Assembly: GCA_030835985.1 (NCBI GenBank)
Contig: JAURQT010000106.1
Location: 1-40,773, forward strand
Length of the DNA stretch: 40,773 bases
Reading direction: 5' to 3'
DNA from: Alphaproteobacteria bacterium
Lineage (GTDB): Bacteria > Pseudomonadota > Alphaproteobacteria > Puniceispirillales > Puniceispirillaceae
Positions 1-10,903 of the stretch are shown here, piece after piece (the first letter of the stretch is position 1; each line of letters starts with the position of its first letter). The translations under genes were made by a program, and so were the position numbers. Under the pieces are notes generated by a model, which ran no database searches, was not told where the DNA came from, and saw nothing but the letters and a program-made list of their open reading frames with translations.

Positions 1-1007
1 ATCATCAATACCATTTCACGGGTAATGGTTTGAAATTCAAAATCCAGCTCTGCCCCGCCCTGATAGAGCGCACCAAATAACAGGCTGGCACATAAAATCC
101 CGACAGGGTGGTTTCGTCCCATCAATGCCACCGCAATGCCGGTAAAGCCATAGCCGGAGGTGAAGTTTAAAATGACCCGCTCCTGCACCCCTAAAATTTC
201 GTTTAAGGACATTAAACCGGCCAGACCGCCTGAAATCGCCATCGCAATCATAATGATACGGGCAGGATTATGCCCGGCATAAATAGCGGCTGGCTCGCTG
301 TGGCCGGTTGCCCGAATGATATAGCCCAGACGCGTGCGCCAGATCAGCACCCAGACCCCGAAGCTGGCCAACAGCGCCACGATAAAGGAAAAATTCAACG
401 GCGATCGGGCGACCGTGAATCCAAATCTGTTTAGCACCTCATATATTTGTGGCAAGCCTACCCCCTGGGCAAAGCTGCGCGTTTCCGGCGACATCTGGCC
501 AGGGGCCATTAACATCCCGGCCAGAAGCCATACCATTATCGAGGCGGCGATAAAATTAAACATAATGGTGGTGATCACAATATGGCTACCGCGCCTGGCT
601 TGCAACCAGCCCGGAATAGCCCCCCATACCGCCCCAAAGAGCGCCGCCGCCAATATCGCCAATACTACCACCATCATAGGCGGCAAAATATTATCCAGTG
701 CCAGACAGATAAACCCAACACCCAGCCCGCCCATCATCGCCTGGCCTTCCCCGCCAATATTAAACAGCATCGCATGAAAGGCGACCGCGACCGCCAGGCC
801 GGTAAAAATAAAATTGGTGGCATAAAACAGCGTATAGCCAAGCGCGCCCTTATAGAGAAATGCCCCCTTTAGCATCACCCCCATCGCCACAAAGGGGTTT
901 TCGCCAATAATCGCGATAATAATCCCGGAGACGACCAGCGCGGCCATCACATTCAACAGGGGCAACAGGCCAATATCTATCCAGCGTGGCAAGATATCCT
1001 GGTTCAT
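1..1007 (-). CDS. Nucleoside-type ABC transporter permease (BPD_transp_2 family), C-terminus cut by the window edge
   Basis: This open frame is absent from the ORF track because it has no stop inside the window. I translated it by hand from the ATG at 1007: it begins MNQDILPRWIDIGLLPLLNV and stays open for 335 codons to the left edge. It is strongly hydrophobic, with about eight membrane-spanning stretches, and contains FNIGGEGQAMMGG and HNPARIIMIAMAISGGLAG, typical of inner-membrane permeases paired with BMP-family binding proteins (the YufP/NupP group). Its ATG overlaps the stop of the upstream ATPase gene as ATGA, so translation is probably coupled. Such systems usually have a second, shorter permease gene next, which would lie beyond the left edge. 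The transported compound is inferred to be a nucleoside or related base from the operon. Only a few C-terminal residues are likely missing. Confidence 0.88.
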   Translation of the reverse strand, partial: MNQDILPRWIDIGLLPLLNVMAALVVSGIIIAIIGENPFVAMGVMLKGAFLYKGALGYTLFYATNFIFTGLAVAVAFHAMLFNIGGEGQAMMGGLGVGFICLALDNILPPMMVVVLAILAAALFGAVWGAIPGWLQARRGSHIVITTIMFNFIAASIMVWLLAGMLMAPGQMSPETRSFAQGVGLPQIYEVLNRFGFTVARSPLNFSFIVALLASFGVWVLIWRTRLGYIIRATGHSEPAAIYAGHNPARIIMIAMAISGGLAGLMSLNEILGVQERVILNFTSGYGFTGIAVALMGRNHPVGILCASLLFGALYQGGAELDFEFQTITREMVLM

Positions 1008-2590
1008 GCCGGCACCTGTGAAGGGGCGTGATGTTCAATGCCAGCCATCATCCGTCCAATTTTTTGAATATCGGCTTCCTGACGTTTTAAAATCCCCATA
1101 TTCTGGCCTGCATTCATCACCATAATCCGATCTGACAGGGTAAGGATTTCATCCAGCTCTACCGAGACCAAAATCACCGCACAGCCCCTGTCACGCAAGC
1201 CCAGCAACTGTTTATGAATAAATTCTATGGCGCCGATATCCACCCCTCTGGTTGGCTGGCCGACCAGCAATATATCCGGCTGGGCAGATATCTCGCGCGC
1301 GACCACAATTTTTTGCTGGTTGCCGCCTGAAAATAAATTGCTTTTCAGGCGCGGATCAGCCGGGCGAATATCAAAATCTGTCATTAATTTCTGGCAATGG
1401 CGGGTGGTTGCCTCAGGCGATAAAAAGACGGAACTGCCGGTTGCCGTGCCGCGCTCTTCATAGCCCAGCATCGCGGATTCAGCCGCACTAAAAGGCAGAA
1501 CAAGCCCCATTGCATGCCGGTCTTCGGGGATATGGGCAACCCCTAATTCTTTTATGCCTGCCGGGCTAAGGGGTGTTTTGGCGCTTATCTCGGCTGTCCC
1601 TATCTGGATACGCCCCTCTTGCGGGGCGGTAATGCCGGCCAGCACTTCCAGCAATTCGGACTGGCCATTGCCAGACACACCGGCAATGCCGAAAATCTCG
1701 CCGCGCCGCACCTCAAAGCAGATATCGTGCAGACAGGTTTTACCGCTTTCATCACGCAAACAAAGGCCATTAACCTGTAAACAGATATCGCCAGCTTGCC
1801 TGCCTTCATAGCCAACGGCCAATAATACCGGCCGGCCCACCATCAATTCGGCCAATTTTTCAGCAGAAGTATCCGCGGTGTCCAGATGGGCGACCATTTC
1901 ACCTGAACGCATCACCGAAACATTATCTGTCACGGCCATAATTTCCTTTAATTTATGGGTGATCAGCAAAATCGTGACCCCCTGGGCGCGCAAGGCTTTC
2001 AGAATTTCAAATAATTGTTCGGTTTCCTGCGGGGTCAACACCCCTGTCGGCTCATCCAGGATCAGAATTTTTGCCCCGCGATACAGGGCTTTGAGGATTT
2101 CCACCCGCTGCTGTAATCCCACAGCCAAATCCTGAACCGTGGCATGCAAATCCACCTGCAAGCCATATTTATCGGCAATCTCCTGTAGCCGGGACGTCGC
2201 CTTTTCCAGACCCGCAGACAAGCTATCTGCCCCTTCATGGCCGAGGATAATATTTTCCAGTACAGTGAAATTGGGTACCAGCATAAAATGCTGGTGTACC
2301 ATGCCAATGCCGCTGGCAATCGCATCTGCGGTAGAGCGTAATGTTACCGGCTGGCCAAATATTTCAATCTCGCCCTGATCAGCGGTATAAAACCCGTATA
2401 AAATGGATACCAGTGTTGATTTGCCGGCGCCATTTTCACCGACAATGCCATGAATTGTTCCCGCTGCCACATCCAGATGGATATCGCGGTTGGCCTGTAC
2501 CGCCCCGAAACTTTTAGAAATATGGTTTAAAACAATAGCAGGTGGCACATTTTCTGCGCCACCTGTATCTGAATATGTATGGTTAGCCAT
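1004..2590 (-). CDS. ABC transporter ATP-binding protein with two ABC domains (nucleoside/sugar type)
   Basis: The 528-aa protein carries two tandem ATPase domains, the layout of MglA/RbsA/YufO-type ATPases. The first has a Walker A GENGAGKS (about residue 52), a Q-loop region MVHQHFMLVPNFTVLENI and Walker B ILILDEPTGVLTPQE. The second has a degenerate Walker A GVSGNGQSELLEVLAG, signature FSGGNQQK and Walker B ILLVGQPTRGVDIG, where the usual DEP is replaced by GQP; this asymmetry is normal for the family. HQHFMLVP is typical of ATPases working with BMP-type binding proteins. It lies between the binding-protein gene (27-bp gap) and the permease (4-bp overlap) and would energise the same importer on the cytoplasmic face. 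The substrate is inferred from the neighbours. Confidence 0.95.
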   Translation of the reverse strand: MANHTYSDTGGAENVPPAIVLNHISKSFGAVQANRDIHLDVAAGTIHGIVGENGAGKSTLVSILYGFYTADQGEIEIFGQPVTLRSTADAIASGIGMVHQHFMLVPNFTVLENIILGHEGADSLSAGLEKATSRLQEIADKYGLQVDLHATVQDLAVGLQQRVEILKALYRGAKILILDEPTGVLTPQETEQLFEILKALRAQGVTILLITHKLKEIMAVTDNVSVMRSGEMVAHLDTADTSAEKLAELMVGRPVLLAVGYEGRQAGDICLQVNGLCLRDESGKTCLHDICFEVRRGEIFGIAGVSGNGQSELLEVLAGITAPQEGRIQIGTAEISAKTPLSPAGIKELGVAHIPEDRHAMGLVLPFSAAESAMLGYEERGTATGSSVFLSPEATTRHCQKLMTDFDIRPADPRLKSNLFSGGNQQKIVVAREISAQPDILLVGQPTRGVDIGAIEFIHKQLLGLRDRGCAVILVSVELDEILTLSDRIMVMNAGQNMGILKRQEADIQKIGRMMAGIEHHAPSQVPA

Positions 2591-2617: not shown

Positions 2618-3625
2618 TTAATACGGGCAATTGGAATTGCTTTCGTAATTATGAACCTTGACCTTGCCGCTGAGGATATCTTTGCGGGCCTGTTCAACAG
2701 CGGCCTTGATATCAGCTGTGACAAGAGAGGCATTATTATCATCCAGTGCCCAGTCCACACCGCCTTCAGCGACACCTAATGTATGTACACCAGAGGTGAA
2801 TTTGCCATCCATCGCATCTTTAAAGGTTTCATACGCAGCCACATCCACGCGCTTTAGCATAGAGGTCAGAACCGAACCGGGGGCCAGGCCATTCTGGTTT
2901 GAGTCTACCCCGATAGCCAGCTTGCCGGCATCAGCAGCGGCCTGAATAACCCCAAGGCCAGTACCACCTGCTGCGTGATAGACAACATCTGCCCCGCGAT
3001 CGATTTGGCTTTTTGCCAGTTCTGCACCCTTGGCCGGGTCATTCCAGGCAGACGGGGTTGTACCGGTCATATTCTGATAGATATTGGCCGAGCCGTTTGC
3101 GGCCTTTACCCCGCCAACATAACCGCAGGCAAATTTGCGTATAAGCGGAATATCCATACCGCCAACAAAGCCGACCTTGCCTGTTTTACTTGCCAGTGCA
3201 GCGGCCACCCCGACCAGATAGCTGCCCTCATGTTCTTTAAAGGAATATTGGCGCAGATTTGGGGCATCCAGCCAGCTGACATCGATGATAGAGAATTGCT
3301 TGTCCGGATATTCTGCGGCCACTTTGGCAATCGCATCTGCCTGGGCAAAGCCAACCCCTAAAATGATGGTTGCACCGCGCTCTGCCATCCGGCGCATGGC
3401 CTGTTCGCGCTGGGTCTCGTTCGTGACTTCAAATTCCATCACTTCGATACCTGTTTCATCGGTAAATTTCTTTACCCCGTTATAAACCCCCTCATTAAAG
3501 GATTTATCAAACTTACCGCCCATATCATAAATCACTGCTGGTTTGATATCTGCTGCATGCACCAAAGAAACCAAACCAATGGCAGATATCGCTGCAATGG
3601 CGAGTGTTTTGACGAATTTCATCAT
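2618..3625 (-). CDS. BMP-family periplasmic nucleoside-binding protein
   Basis: This 335-aa protein is the solute receptor of the adjacent ABC importer. It starts with a signal peptide (hydrophobic core AIAAISAIGLVSL, likely cleavage after VHA), without a lipobox, so it should be a soluble periplasmic protein rather than a lipoprotein as in Gram-positive BmpA. Family features are DMGGKFDKSFNEGVYNG near the mature N-terminus, FVGGMDIPLIRKFACGYVGG in the middle and YHAAGGTGLGVIQAA, all typical of the Bmp/PnrA fold that binds purine and pyrimidine nucleosides. Two adjacent ATGs exist (3625 and 3622); GGGAG sits 4 or 7 bases upstream, so the second may be used. The gene follows the dioxygenase by 13 bp and precedes the ATPase by 27 bp. 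Ligand identity is inference from the family plus the adjoining nucleoside hydrolase. Confidence 0.93.
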   Translation of the reverse strand: MMKFVKTLAIAAISAIGLVSLVHAADIKPAVIYDMGGKFDKSFNEGVYNGVKKFTDETGIEVMEFEVTNETQREQAMRRMAERGATIILGVGFAQADAIAKVAAEYPDKQFSIIDVSWLDAPNLRQYSFKEHEGSYLVGVAAALASKTGKVGFVGGMDIPLIRKFACGYVGGVKAANGSANIYQNMTGTTPSAWNDPAKGAELAKSQIDRGADVVYHAAGGTGLGVIQAAADAGKLAIGVDSNQNGLAPGSVLTSMLKRVDVAAYETFKDAMDGKFTSGVHTLGVAEGGVDWALDDNNASLVTADIKAAVEQARKDILSGKVKVHNYESNSNCPY

Positions 3626-3638
3626 CTTTCTCCCTATT

Positions 3639-4472
3639 TTATTTTAAACCAATCTGTTTGAGCCGCTCTTGTAAAAACTGGTCTGCTGTAAAAGCAGGCT
3701 TTAATTCCACATCCGGGCGCGGATGCAAAAACATAGGCATAGAATAGCGTGACTGATTTGGATTTTCACCTGGATTCACCACCCGATGCGTTGTCGAGGG
3801 GAAATAATTATCGCTGGCCAGAGCCAGCATATCCCCGTTATTGATTGTAATCATACCAGGATCGCACGGCACATCATGCCAGTGACCATGCGTATCTTTT
3901 GCCTGCAAGCCGGGCTGAGAGCCGGCGACCAGCAAGGTAATAAGGTTAATATCTTCATGTGCGGCGGCGCGAATCGCAGCAGATACCTCATCGGCAGCGA
4001 CCGGCGGGTAATGCAAAATCCTGAGCAGGCTTTGCGCGCTCTGTGCCATCATATCCTGCAAGGGCTGGCTTAATTTTTGCGCGATATCTTCTGGCAACTG
4101 GCTATCCAGCCAGCCAAGCAGCTCTATGCCCAGCCCGACCAGATCGCCATAAAATTCTCTGGTTTCCTGTGCCAGCCCATCCGGGACTTGCCCCCATGGA
4201 TAGACATGGAAAAACTCTTTTAAATCCTTTTCCCTTGCATCTTTGGCATGCTCGGACTTAAACGGGAAATAGCCATCCTGGCGCACCGGATCACGCAAGT
4301 AATCATGCTTTTCCTCTGTGGCAAAAAACGCGCCCCAGCTGGCATAAATCGCCTCAATCCGTGCGGCGGTAATCGGATGGTTGGTTAACACCGCAAAGCC
4401 GGTTTCGCGCAAGGATTGCGCCAATAATAGGGGCGCATTTTCAGAACGATAATCCACAGTTTGAATGTGCAT
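3639..4472 (-). CDS. 2-oxoglutarate/Fe(II)-dependent dioxygenase, isopenicillin N synthase-like; possible nucleobase or nucleoside oxygenase
   Basis: The 277-aa protein has the layout of the DIOX_N plus 2OG-FeII_Oxy family (IPNS/flavanone hydroxylase/thymine 7-hydroxylase superfamily). The iron triad is visible as HED (His172, Asp174) and His229 in STTHRV, and the 2-oxoglutarate carboxylate-binding RxS as RYS (Arg242, Ser244). The N-terminal SLRETGFAVLTNHPI matches the usual GF-hydrophobic-xxxxHP stretch. The track starts at a TTG (4481); I prefer the ATG at 4472, which has AAAAAGGGG upstream. It sits between a nucleoside hydrolase (43-bp gap) and a nucleoside-binding protein (13-bp gap). Thymine 7-hydroxylase and deoxynucleoside 2'-hydroxylase of fungi use the same chemistry, so oxidation of a pyrimidine base or nucleoside is a reasonable inference. 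The family assignment is firm; the substrate is not. Confidence 0.9.
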   Translation of the reverse strand: MHIQTVDYRSENAPLLLAQSLRETGFAVLTNHPITAARIEAIYASWGAFFATEEKHDYLRDPVRQDGYFPFKSEHAKDAREKDLKEFFHVYPWGQVPDGLAQETREFYGDLVGLGIELLGWLDSQLPEDIAQKLSQPLQDMMAQSAQSLLRILHYPPVAADEVSAAIRAAAHEDINLITLLVAGSQPGLQAKDTHGHWHDVPCDPGMITINNGDMLALASDNYFPSTTHRVVNPGENPNQSRYSMPMFLHPRPDVELKPAFTADQFLQERLKQIGLK

Positions 4473-4515
4473 GACAACCAACCCCTTTTTAACGCCACTG
4501 GCCTGATACAGTTTT

Positions 4516-5478
4516 TTAGCTCTGTGTGCTGGAAATTCTGCTATCTCTTATTGTGTCAGCTTGTGCGCAGATATCCAGAAAAATTTTACGCACCCGCGCA
4601 ATATCCGCTGTTATGGCGACATTCACCGCCCGGCGTCCGCTGTCTGTATCCGCGATGGTGCGGCCGATTTCCTCACCCTGGCACACCACCTTTAACGGGG
4701 CCGGGCGAAAGCTGAACGCATCCCGGTCGGTAATGGCGATAACCGCTGACGGGTCATGCATCATACAATGATATATCCCCCCCACAGAATGATAAAAATC
4801 GATATAAAATTTGGTCATATCCGCCAGAAATCCGCCTATATCGGGCGAGCTGCCTCGCAGGCTGTCAAAATCATCCTGTACACAGGTAATGGTCTGGGTA
4901 ACATCCAGCCCGATTAGATCCATCTCCCAATCTGCGGCAAATACCGTGTCAGCGGCATGCGGATCATTCCAGATATTTGCCTCGGCAAAGCCGGTGACAT
5001 TACCCGGACACCATACCGCCCCGCCCATTATCACCAGCTTTTTTACATATTTCGTGATTTCCGGATCATAATCCAGCAAGGCCGCGATATTGGTAAGCGG
5101 GCCGACCGGACATAAAATCACCTCGCCTGGATATTGCCGGCAGGTTTCAGACAAAAACACCGCTGCCGCGCGCGGGTCTGGCTGGCGGCCGGGGTTTGGG
5201 GCAGGCAAATTACCGAACCCTTCATCGCCATGTACATAATGAGATGGCTGGTTTGCATCCTGGACGCGTGGGCGCAAAGCCCCTTGTGCGACCGGAATAG
5301 CACTGCCAGCCTGTTCCACCAGATAGAGCGCATTTCGGGTTGCCTGATGGGTAAAGACATTACCAAAGATAGAGGTTAGCCCTAACAGCTCCAAGCGGGG
5401 ATCGGCAAAAGCCAGGTGAATGGCCATCGCATCATCGATGCCGGGATCGGTATCAATAATGATTTTATCTATCGCCAT
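4516..5478 (-). CDS. Inosine/uridine-preferring nucleoside hydrolase
   Basis: This 320-aa protein hydrolyses the N-glycosidic bond of ribonucleosides to free base and ribose. The calcium-binding signature DTDPGIDDA begins at about residue 9, NIWNDPHAAD follows mid-protein, and the C-terminal HDPSAV supplies the last conserved Asp and His. Length is usual for IUNH enzymes, and no signal peptide is visible, so it is cytoplasmic. The start ATG at 5478 has AAGGGT about 7 bases upstream. It lies 26 bp behind pyrE and 43 bp ahead of the dioxygenase. With the nucleoside importer downstream, it supplies free bases from imported nucleosides. Whether it prefers pyrimidine or purine nucleosides cannot be read from the sequence with confidence; its position next to pyrE and pyrC leans towards pyrimidines. 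Confidence 0.95.
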   Translation of the reverse strand: MAIDKIIIDTDPGIDDAMAIHLAFADPRLELLGLTSIFGNVFTHQATRNALYLVEQAGSAIPVAQGALRPRVQDANQPSHYVHGDEGFGNLPAPNPGRQPDPRAAAVFLSETCRQYPGEVILCPVGPLTNIAALLDYDPEITKYVKKLVIMGGAVWCPGNVTGFAEANIWNDPHAADTVFAADWEMDLIGLDVTQTITCVQDDFDSLRGSSPDIGGFLADMTKFYIDFYHSVGGIYHCMMHDPSAVIAITDRDAFSFRPAPLKVVCQGEEIGRTIADTDSGRRAVNVAITADIARVRKIFLDICAQADTIRDSRISSTQS

Positions 5479-5504: not shown

Positions 5505-6191
5505 TTATTTTGTGCTGCCCCCATTGGCCGCAGACCAGCCCTTTGGATCGCGCAGAAACGCCTCGACAGTTGCACAGGTTTTATCATCAAATTTATCACT
5601 TTGCCTCAGCTGTTCCAATACATCCCACCAGCTTGCCAGATAATGCAATTGCAAGCCAGCCTGTTCCAGCTCTTCTTTGGCATGGGCAAAAATATCATAA
5701 TAAAACACCACAAACACATGATGGCATTCTGCCCCTGCCTTGCGCAACGCATCGGCAAACATAAATTTGCTGCCCCCGTCTGTGGCCAGATCCTCAACCA
5801 GCAGAACCCGGCTATTTTCCGGCAGATAGCCTTCAATTTGTGCGTTACGCCCAAAACCCTTTGGTTTTTTACGCACATATTGCATCGGCAGCGCCAGCCT
5901 TTCTGCCATAAAGGCGGCAAAGGGAATGCCGGCTGTCTCGCCCCCGGCTACGCTGTCAAAGGCTTCAAATCCGGCTTCTTCGGCCAGAACCGACACACCA
6001 AAATCCATCAATGCGGCGCGAATACGAGGAAAAGAGATCAGCTTGCGGCAATCGATATACACAGGGCTGGCTGCCCCCGAGGTCAAAACAAAGGGTTTTT
6101 CTGCATTTACATGCACCGCCTCAATTTCCAGCAGCATCGATGCGGTGGCTTTTGCTATCCTCTTTTTATCTGTCAGGCTGAGGGAAATCAT
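5505..6191 (-). CDS. pyrE: Orotate phosphoribosyltransferase
   Basis: PyrE joins orotate to PRPP, giving OMP and pyrophosphate in de novo UMP synthesis. The 228-aa protein has the PRPP-binding motif [15 protein letters not shown] (around residues 127-141), the [16 protein letters not shown] region near the N-terminus and the [14 protein letters not shown] flexible catalytic loop. A long C-terminal tail ending [10 protein letters not shown] fits the alphaproteobacterial form. The ATG at 6191 is preceded by AAGGAG at 8 bases. It is 32 bp behind pyrC and 26 bp ahead of the nucleoside hydrolase, so PRPP-dependent synthesis and nucleoside breakdown are co-expressed. Such an enzyme could also act on orotate-like bases, for example 5-carboxyuracil from the neighbouring dioxygenase, but that is speculation. 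Confidence 0.95.
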
Positions 6192-6223: not shown

Positions 6224-7270
6224 CTAGCGTTTTTCTGCCACAGACCAGAATATTTCCATTTGCGGGTCAAAAACTGTTACCGGCCCTTCTGCGGTTTCTA
6301 CCGGTGCCAGAACAGGCTGGGCCGTTTCATGGCGCTGCAGGGTAATCGCAGCTTCATTTACCGGCAGGCGATAAAATTCTGGCCCATAGACAGAGGTGAA
6401 ATTTTCCAGCTTGTCCAGTGCCTGATGATTTTCAAAAAGCTGGGCAAGACAAGCCAGCGTATTTGGTGCATTAAAGATGCCGGCACACCCGCAAGGCTGG
6501 AGCTTTGCTGCATCAATATGCGGGGCGCTATCTGTCCCCAGAAAAACCTTGCCTGTATCGGCCAGAACCGCCTCTAGCAAGGCCAGGCGATGGCTTTCTC
6601 TTTTGGCCACGGGCAGACAGTAATAATGCGGCTTAATCCCCCCGGCCAATATCGCATTGCGATTAATGATCAGATGATGCGGGGTAATGGTGGCGGCCAG
6701 ATTTTCATCCCCTGACAGGACGAATTGGGCAGCCTGGGCGGTGGTGATATGCTCAAACACAATCCGCAATTCCGGCAGCGTTTCGCGCAAGGGCGCAAGA
6801 ACCCGTTCGATAAATACCGCCTCGCGGTCAAAAATATCGATATCGCTATCGGTAACCTCGCCATGTACCAGAAGCGGCAAGCCTATCTCTGCCATTTTTT
6901 CCAGCACAGGCATCACCTTTTCAATATCGCGCACGCCGCTATCTGAATTGGTAGTTGCCCCGGCAGGATACAGCTTTACCGCAGAAATAATGCCGGCTTC
7001 TGCCCCCTTTTGAAGGTCAGCCGGACAGGTGGTTTCGGTCAGATATAATACCATCAGGGGGGTAAAAATATCGCCTGTCGGCACCGCCGATAAAATGCGC
7101 GCGCGATACGCGTCTGCCATCGCTGAAGTGGTGACAGGCGGCACCAGGTTGGGCATAATTATTGCCCGCCCGCACCAGCTGGCACTATGCGGCAAAACCG
7201 CCTGCATAACCGCCCCGTCGCGCAAATGCAGATGCCAGTCATCAGGACAGCGGATGGTAAGTTCTGTCAT
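6224..7270 (-). CDS. pyrC: Dihydroorotase, class II (PyrC type)
   Basis: PyrC reversibly closes N-carbamoyl-aspartate to dihydroorotate. At 348 aa it has the same length as the E. coli enzyme and all expected zinc ligands: DWHLHLRDG at residues 11-19, the carboxylated lysine in [13 protein letters not shown] (about 98), HGE (about 137), FEHITT (about 172) and GTDSAPH (about 245). The flexible substrate loop is TITPHHLI. It begins 9 bp after the stop of ppa and precedes pyrE by 32 bp. The mono-functional PyrC type rather than the aspartate-transcarbamoylase-linked type suggests that pyrB lies elsewhere. No attenuator-like structure is visible in the short gaps around it. Confidence 0.97.
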
Positions 7271-7279
7271 GAGCCAGCC

Positions 7280-7807
7280 TTATCCATTCGCCCGCTCAAT
7301 CGCAGCACGGATCATCTCGGCTGCTTTTTCTGGCCCTTCCCAGCCCTGAACCTTTACCCATTTGGTCTTTTCCAGATCCTTGTAATGTTCAAAGAAATGG
7401 CCAATTTGTTCCAGAATAATAGCCGGTAAATCAGCGGTTGATTTTACATCCCTATAGAGCGGGTGCAATTTATCTGTCGGCACACATAACAGCTTTTCAT
7501 CCACCCCGCTTTCATCTTCCATCATCAAAACGCCAATCGGGCGGGCAGCGATGATACAGCCATGAACAATCGGCATCGGGGTCAGCACGCACGCATCAAT
7601 CGGATCGCCATCATCAGACAAGGTATGCGGCACAAAACCATAATTCACTGGATAATGCATCGGCGTATGTAAAAATCTGTCTACCAGCAACGCGCCGGAA
7701 CTCTTGTCCAGCTCATATTTTACCGGGGCAGATTGGGCCGGAATTTCAATTGCCACATTAATTTCTTCGGGCGGACTTTTACCAACAGAGATTTTGTCCA
7801 AATTCAT
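7280..7807 (-). CDS. ppa: Inorganic pyrophosphatase, family I
   Basis: Ppa hydrolyses pyrophosphate to phosphate in the cytoplasm. Active-site residues are visible: KYELDKSSGAL, YPVNYGFVPHT, the metal-binding DGDPIDACVL signature and the C-terminal HFFEHYKDLE followed by KWVKV. The track gives a 179-aa frame from 7819, but the Shine-Dalgarno AAAAAGG directly abuts that ATG with no spacer, while the second ATG at 7807 sits 11 bases behind AAGGA. Alphaproteobacterial homologues begin M(R/N)xDxIS, so MNLDKIS at 7807 (175 aa) is preferred. It is the first gene of the minus-strand pyrimidine/nucleoside operon, and its activity would pull the PyrE reaction forward. The probable promoter lies in 7820-8008, shared with the divergent monooxygenase gene. 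Confidence 0.96.
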   Translation of the reverse strand: MNLDKISVGKSPPEEINVAIEIPAQSAPVKYELDKSSGALLVDRFLHTPMHYPVNYGFVPHTLSDDGDPIDACVLTPMPIVHGCIIAARPIGVLMMEDESGVDEKLLCVPTDKLHPLYRDVKSTADLPAIILEQIGHFFEHYKDLEKTKWVKVQGWEGPEKAAEMIRAAIERANG

Positions 7808-7819
7808 TGTCTTGCTCAT

Positions 7820-9892: not shown

Positions 9893-10903
9893 ATGCATAA
9901 ACTACCAAAAACCAATCAATTTGTTGTTGCTGCCTTATATCAATTCGTATCTGTCGACGATATTGAACTCTGGCAGACAAAGCTGAAAGATATCTGTGCA
10001 TCCTGTCATCTGATGGGCACCTTGCTGTTAGCTGATGAAGGGCTGAACGGCACCATTTCCGGGCGCTATGATGATATGCATCGCTTTATTGACTGGCTGT
10101 TGGGAAACACCATTTTCACCGCACCGGAATTAAAATTTGCCGTCCATGAAACCCTGCCCTTTCACCGCATGAAAGTACGGCTAAAGCGCGAAATTGTAAC
10201 AATGGGCGCAGAAGGTATCAGCCCCACCAAACAGGCCGGCACTTATGTCAGCCCGAAAGACTGGAACGCGCTGATATCTGAGCCTGGTGTAATGGTGGTC
10301 GATACCAGAAATGATTATGAAGTGGCGATAGGCCAGTTTCAGGGGGCGGTAAACCCGCTGACCAAAACCTTTCGCGAGTTTCCGCAATGGGCAGAGACAC
10401 TGGCGGCCATGCCAGAAGAAGAAAGGCCAAAAAAACTGGCCATGTATTGCACAGGCGGTATCCGGTGCGAGAAATCAACCGCGCTGATGAAAAATCTGGG
10501 CTTTGAAGATGTCTATCATCTAAAAGGCGGCATCCTGCAATATCTGGAAGATATCCCGCAAGAGCATTCCTTATGGGAGGGCGAATGTTTTGTTTTTGAT
10601 AGCCGGGTGGCGGTCGATCATAATCTGCAGCGTGGCCAGTATGCATTATGTCATGCCTGTAAAATGCCGCTTAGTGCTGATGAGATGAAAACCCGTGCCT
10701 ATGTTGCGGGAATAAGCTGTCCGCATTGCATCGATAAAACATCTGCCAGCCAGCGCGCCCGCTTTGCCGAACGTGCCCGCCAGATAGAGCTGGCAAAACA
10801 GCGCGGTACCACCCATATCGGGATCAGCCCCAAAGCATCGGCGACGAGTAAACTTGCGCCGAAAAAGCCAAACCGGGAAATGGCTAAATCAGAAAAAAGC
10901 TAA
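9893..10903 (+). CDS. trhO: tRNA uridine(34) hydroxylase, rhodanese-domain UPF0176/YceA family
   Basis: TrhO uses oxygen to hydroxylate U34 of certain tRNAs, the first step towards 5-(carboxy)methoxyuridine wobble bases. The 336-aa protein has the UPF0176 N-terminal domain (LLADEGLNGTISG at about 43-55), a rhodanese domain with VVDTRNDYEVAIGQFQGAVNP and the active loop MYCTGGIRCEKS (Cys about 186), and a C-terminal Cys pair region CHACKMPL...CPHC that probably binds a metal. The lysine-rich tail is extended and low in complexity. No clear Shine-Dalgarno precedes the ATG at 9893; an inverted repeat GGCCA/TGGCC (9867-9890) lies where one would be expected. Its TAA overlaps the rpe stop tail to tail in a CTAA tetranucleotide. 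Confidence 0.93.
   Translation: MHKLPKTNQFVVAALYQFVSVDDIELWQTKLKDICASCHLMGTLLLADEGLNGTISGRYDDMHRFIDWLLGNTIFTAPELKFAVHETLPFHRMKVRLKREIVTMGAEGISPTKQAGTYVSPKDWNALISEPGVMVVDTRNDYEVAIGQFQGAVNPLTKTFREFPQWAETLAAMPEEERPKKLAMYCTGGIRCEKSTALMKNLGFEDVYHLKGGILQYLEDIPQEHSLWEGECFVFDSRVAVDHNLQRGQYALCHACKMPLSADEMKTRAYVAGISCPHCIDKTSASQRARFAERARQIELAKQRGTTHIGISPKASATSKLAPKKPNREMAKSEKS

Follow-up and report, generated by a model that had tools for sequence, protein, structure and literature searches.

A conserved 2-oxoglutarate oxygenase in a SAR116 nucleoside import and hydrolysis operon: a possible role at the ribose 2' position

A 2-oxoglutarate (2OG)/Fe(II) oxygenase is encoded within a nucleoside import and hydrolysis operon that is conserved in SAR116 bacteria. 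It was found in a window, the whole stretch of 40,773 nucleotides analysed here, from a metagenome-assembled genome (MAG; 2.01 Mb, 96% complete) whose closest named relatives are SAR116. The fold and catalytic residues of the enzyme are well defined, and its gene partners are conserved. Within this pathway, the substrates of the oxygenase are probably nucleosides or the bases they contain. Our preferred reading, to which we assign a probability of about 0.4, is that it works at the nucleoside level and would oxidise the 2' position of the ribose, either by 2'-hydroxylating deoxynucleosides or by removing a 2'-O-methyl group, yielding a ribonucleoside.

The oxygenase gene runs on the minus strand from an ATG at 4472 to a stop codon ending at 3639 and encodes 277 amino acids; an alternative TTG start is possible at 4481. 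Two domains score above the Pfam cut-off, 2OG-FeII_Oxy (66.8 bits) and DIOX_N (43.7 bits). The Pfam search gave PF03171 and PF14226 only, with no match to PF05721, and NCBIfam supplied no family name. The Fe ligands H172-x-D174...H229 and the 2OG-binding R242-x-S244 are all intact, as the first-pass annotation had read from this ORF, and are invariant or nearly so among 94 orthologues. With its HxD...H and RxS residues on a double-stranded beta-helix, the protein is a member of the DIOX_N/2OG-FeII_Oxy superfamily.

The closest structures by sequence profile are 3ON7 (440 bits), 3OOX (211 bits), fungal thymine-7-hydroxylase (T7H; 110 bits) and the ethylene-forming-enzyme-like 9OVH (101 bits). 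In Foldseek, a confident AlphaFold2 model (pLDDT 89) has 3ON7, 3OOX and T7H as its first, second and third matches. The window protein scores 302 bits to 3ON7, Shewanella oneidensis SO_2589, and 137 bits to the next superfamily member. Full-length similarity far above that to other members assigns it to the SO_2589 orthologue family. The two proteins share ~50% identity over their full length, superpose with a TM of 0.91 and have the catalytic residues in common. The function of 3ON7 is listed as undefined (PMC10467617), and our literature search turned up no study of this operon or of what SO_2589 does. Caulobacter CC_0200 (3OOX) is more distant than 3ON7, and its function is likewise undefined. 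The nearest characterised relative, both by profile and by fold, is T7H (5C3P-S), which shares the fold (TMq ~0.8) and the Fe and 2OG ligands at ~23-24% identity; the kinship with T7H proposed from the sequence at first pass is thereby borne out.

In the window, the minus strand carries, in order, ppa, pyrC, pyrE, an inosine-uridine nucleoside hydrolase (IUNH), the oxygenase, a BMP binding protein, an ABC ATPase and a permease (Table 1). The gaps of 13 bp between the BMP start (3625) and the oxygenase stop (3639), and of 43 bp between the oxygenase ATG (4472) and the IUNH stop (4516), are as first annotated. The Ca/ribose motifs of the IUNH are intact (DTDPGIDDA at residue 9, AEANIWNDP at 165 and HDPSA at 241), so that both the Ca-binding DxDPGxDD and the HD motif are present. 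In relatives, a second permease and a cytidine deaminase come after the permease. Elsewhere in the window, at 9893-10903, lies a gene for a rhodanese-domain protein that, by eye, resembles the O2-dependent tRNA uridine-34 hydroxylase TrhO/YceA.

Table 1. Positions of the oxygenase, its neighbours in the window and the DusA genes found beside orthologues.
Feature	Locus	Position	Strand	Basis
ABC permease of BMP importer	window	1..1007, runs off window	minus	ORF 3-1007; relatives' gene order
ABC transporter ATPase of BMP importer, two ABC domains	window	1004..2590	minus	PF00005 in two stretches
BMP/PnrA-type substrate-binding protein	window	2618..3625	minus	PF02608 215 bits; PDB matches 7x0r, TmpC/PnrA 2fqw
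2OG/Fe(II) oxygenase (DIOX_N + 2OG-FeII_Oxy), SO_2589 (PDB 3ON7) orthologue	window	3639..4472	minus	profile match and catalytic residues
Inosine-uridine nucleoside hydrolase (IUNH), RihC/RihA-like	window	4516..5478	minus	PF01156 283 bits and motifs
pyrE, orotate phosphoribosyltransferase	window	5505..6191	minus	NF001729 368 bits, above cut-off
pyrC, dihydroorotase	window	6224..7270	minus	TIGR00856 419 bits, above cut-off
ppa, inorganic pyrophosphatase; upstream end of co-directional run	window	7280..7819	minus	PF00719 196 bits
DusA beside oxygenase	L220	6877-7854		
DusA beside oxygenase	L224	5177-6175		
DusA beside oxygenase	L229	5076-6038		
DusA beside oxygenase	L230	4911-6023		
DusA beside oxygenase	L241	6882-7859		

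Within SAR116, most genomes in families f1 and f2 have an orthologue (61-88% identity), which also occurs in a third family at ~55%, and a clear identity gap separates orthologues (at least 55%) from paralogues (below 40%). The IUNH gene lies directly upstream of the oxygenase in all 25 loci with flank, and the BMP gene directly downstream in 28 of 29. The twenty-ninth, from MED-G06 (L054:10968-14647), has a divergent transporter in the same places (BMP 32%, ATPase 48% and permease 37% identity). The usual order is PfkB, IUNH, oxygenase, BMP, ATPase, two permeases and cytidine deaminase; the PfkB is ribokinase-like, and upp (on the opposite strand) and thymidine kinase stand next to the operon. 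In f1 and f2 a genome mostly has both the oxygenase and the IUNH or neither, and those without the oxygenase (G020, G026, G031, G035 and family f4) have no IUNH either. In L153-L155, from the third family, the oxygenase is set apart from these genes. The association of oxygenase, IUNH and BMP genes is beyond chance, and the suggested link to nucleoside import and hydrolysis has come through the neighbourhood survey, both in these loci and by recurrence elsewhere.

Outside SAR116, the genes found most often as co-directional partners of the oxygenase family are nucleoside genes. IUNH is found in 13 loci, PfkB in 10, the BMP transporter in 8-9, NupC in 9 and uridine kinase (Udk) in 5, the IUNH, PfkB and BMP counts taking in a few SAR116 loci. 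PfkB-IUNH-oxygenase-BMP recurs in G156, G176, G280, G621 and Pacificispira (L085). In G156 (L140:9799-12478), genes for PreA (744 bits) and a PreT-like protein of dihydropyrimidine dehydrogenase are directly upstream of PfkB-IUNH-oxygenase. Gammaproteobacterial MAGs carry (PfkB-)IUNH-oxygenase-NupC (L079, L076) or IUNH-oxygenase (L073, L077), and another gammaproteobacterial family has PfkB-IUNH-oxygenase in one genome (L231) and BMP-ATPase-permease-permease-oxygenase in another (L232). A third has uridine kinase-NupC-oxygenase in five genomes (L158, L163, L181, L182, L252), two of which carry a separate PfkB-IUNH pair (L183, L192). NupC-oxygenase is also found in the alphaproteobacterium IMCC14465. 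NupC, identified by TIGR00804, belongs to a transporter family unrelated to the BMP ABC importers. Genes were called with a simple ORF picker, which produces false antisense ORFs in GC-rich genomes, and L085, L140, L232, L079, L076 and L054 were rechecked against such calls by tblastn.

In a maximum-likelihood tree of 100 rows, with moderate deep support, the linked members fall into several separate branches: an alphaproteobacterial clade, L075, L080, L231/L232 and the NupC-Udk group. The solo label of L232 in this tree reflects nothing more than the distance of its BMP gene, which is four genes away. The sampled genomes are unevenly related. More than half of the surveyed non-SAR116 orthologues have no nucleoside neighbours, and the oxygenase stands alone in Vibrio, Salinivibrio, Tistrella, Nitrospirillum/Niveispirillum and many Gammaproteobacteria, among others. 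Phage and plasmid searches returned one weak phage match and copies from Vibrio, Salinivibrio and Tistrella, mostly unannotated or lacking nucleoside neighbours. In five gammaproteobacterial genomes, the gene for the tRNA-dihydrouridine synthase DusA lies directly upstream of the oxygenase, overlapping it or less than 50 bp away, and one of these loci (L241) has a guanine deaminase downstream. Half of the six DusA-linked rows in the tree alignment have Q in place of H89. One genome (G1097, L242:6096-7879) holds two tandem diverged oxygenase copies, which are 43% and 52% identical to their nearest labelled members.

In IUNH enzymes, calcium binds the ribose through the 2'- and 3'-hydroxyls, and the substrates of uridine kinase are ribonucleosides. 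Since the oxygenase recurs with IUNH, with uridine kinase and with two unrelated importer families, conversion of nucleosides without a free 2'-OH into ribonucleosides is the best reading, and the Udk-NupC-oxygenase operons point to a step at the level of the nucleoside, not of the free base. The expected product would be suited to Udk, to IUNH and to the ribokinase-like PfkB. In the proposed pathway, free nucleosides would reach the oxygenase through the BMP importer or by release inside the cell. The enzyme would then hydroxylate C2' of 2'-deoxynucleosides to the ribonucleoside, as in the fungal conversion of thymidine to thymine ribonucleoside, or, alternatively, remove a 2'-O-methyl as formaldehyde. 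Cleavage of the ribonucleoside would fall to the adjacent IUNH, which requires the 2'-OH at its Ca-ribose site; the freed ribose would be phosphorylated by the PfkB kinase and the base recycled by Cdd/Upp. In the NupC-Udk lineages, uridine kinase would phosphorylate the ribonucleoside instead.

Both chemistries have precedents. PMC4787775 cites fungal 2'-hydroxylation of thymidine, and 2OG-dependent 2'-O-demethylation of free nucleosides has been demonstrated for FJS/PHYHD1, which are also 2OG oxygenases (PMC12709175). The fungal/yeast pyrimidine deoxynucleoside 2'-hydroxylase (EC 1.14.11.3), for which we found no reference sequence for comparison, resembles the oxygenase in pathway logic only: in its cosubstrates and in nucleoside hydrolysis as the next step. 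FJS/PHYHD1 belong to the phytanoyl-CoA dioxygenase family PF05721, a different Pfam family from the window oxygenase, which speaks against our reading. The sequence cannot separate 2'-hydroxylation from 2'-O-demethylation; gene context points to the pathway and not to the atom oxidised.

The nearest characterised enzyme suggests another chemistry, namely T7H-like oxidation of thymine or 5-methyluridine (from tRNA T54 or thymidine) at the C5 methyl to a recyclable uracil derivative. The profile match to T7H spans the full length, the pyrimidine genes Cdd, Upp and thymidine kinase are nearby, and PreA stands beside the operon in G156. T7H contacts thymine through N87, E122, R190, Y217, F292 and N294 (PMC4787775). 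Its Fe/2OG ligands R190, Y194, R286 and S288 correspond to R151, Y155, R242 and S244 of the oxygenase and are all kept; of the thymine contacts, only the R190 and F292 equivalents are, with Y217 replaced by I175, N87 by Q65 (Q/H), E122 by H89 and N294 by H250. Among the Amidohydro_2 (PF04909) proteins checked in the 96% complete MAG, none looks like an isoorotate decarboxylase; of the three matches to this family, one is partial and the two checked are a BB4693-like protein and a 4-oxalomesaconate hydratase. Together with the Udk-NupC linkage, which points to a nucleoside, these observations make base-methyl oxidation unlikely. The pocket comparison with T7H envisaged at first pass thus leaves the thymine-contact set unmatched, and the thymine-to-isoorotate route with re-entry through PyrE or a decarboxylase has lost its place as the leading idea. 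A partnership with PyrE was also set aside because the loci in which pyrE and pyrC were seen to adjoin the oxygenase operon all belong to the window's own genus. In the gammaproteobacterium G1151 (L221), as in the window, pyrE and pyrC are near the oxygenase, here on the other strand.

I175, H89 and H250 hardly vary, whether a member is linked or solo, which suggests one common reaction across the family. The same pattern, and the many solo copies in Gammaproteobacteria, would suit an enzyme that clears another modified nucleoside from RNA turnover (e.g. dihydrouridine or an N-methyl nucleoside) and for which the nucleoside operon is just one setting. The DusA neighbour, with guanine deaminase downstream in one case, fits such a role and is unaccounted for by the 2' reading; the DusA link may equally be plain gene order, and repeated linkage to PfkB-IUNH and transporters is not predicted, so we consider RNA clean-up improbable. 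That the oxygenase is a passenger with an unrelated substrate seems more improbable still: the large share of orthologues without nucleoside neighbours would allow it, but chance would hardly produce linkage that recurs across separate branches and with different transporters. Oxidation of deoxynucleosides at C1' (as in EC 1.14.11.10), giving base and deoxyribonolactone directly, is a reaction that 2OG enzymes are known to perform on the same fungal substrates, and it fits the same gene context. It would make the IUNH and ribokinase partners unnecessary, and no lactone-handling gene was recognised in the operons; we hold it to be very unlikely.

A bolder version of the 2' reading, which we regard as rather doubtful, is that the family supplies bacterial deoxynucleoside 2'-hydroxylation, and that in SAR116 and other bacteria an oxidative, hydrolytic route for consuming DNA nucleosides, from deoxynucleoside to ribonucleoside to base and ribose, replaces the phosphorolytic deo pathway. 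deoC is absent from all 61 SAR116 genomes, and PyNP occurs only in G020, which has neither the oxygenase nor the IUNH. Outside SAR116, DeoC is found in none of 15 nucleoside-linked versus 18 of 34 unlinked oxygenase genomes (Fisher p = 0.0002, kinship ignored); among the alphas this contrast is not significant (p=0.12, kinship ignored). Only 87 of 385 Alphaproteobacteria (23%) have deoC, so its absence from SAR116 is near the baseline, and a confounder is the tendency of IUNH and DeoC to be mutually exclusive. We therefore treat deoC absence as weak support for the 2' reading, having set it aside as strong evidence because of the class baseline. In Vibrio- and Shewanella-type genomes with the deo pathway, solo orthologues have the same conserved pocket residues, a poor match for a role solely in deo replacement.

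SAR116 is a common lineage of the surface ocean, and DNA and RNA in dissolved form make up large pools of nutrients. That the SAR116 nucleoside operon contains a conserved oxygenase implies that nucleoside use includes a step dependent on oxygen, which to our knowledge is absent from current pathway maps. We know of no gene assigned to the fungal 2'-hydroxylase activity, and the oxygenase family may provide a sequence for this activity, which is known in fungi alone. Taken together, our analysis offers a testable function for the structural-genomics orphan 3ON7, whose family is spread through marine Alpha- and Gammaproteobacteria.
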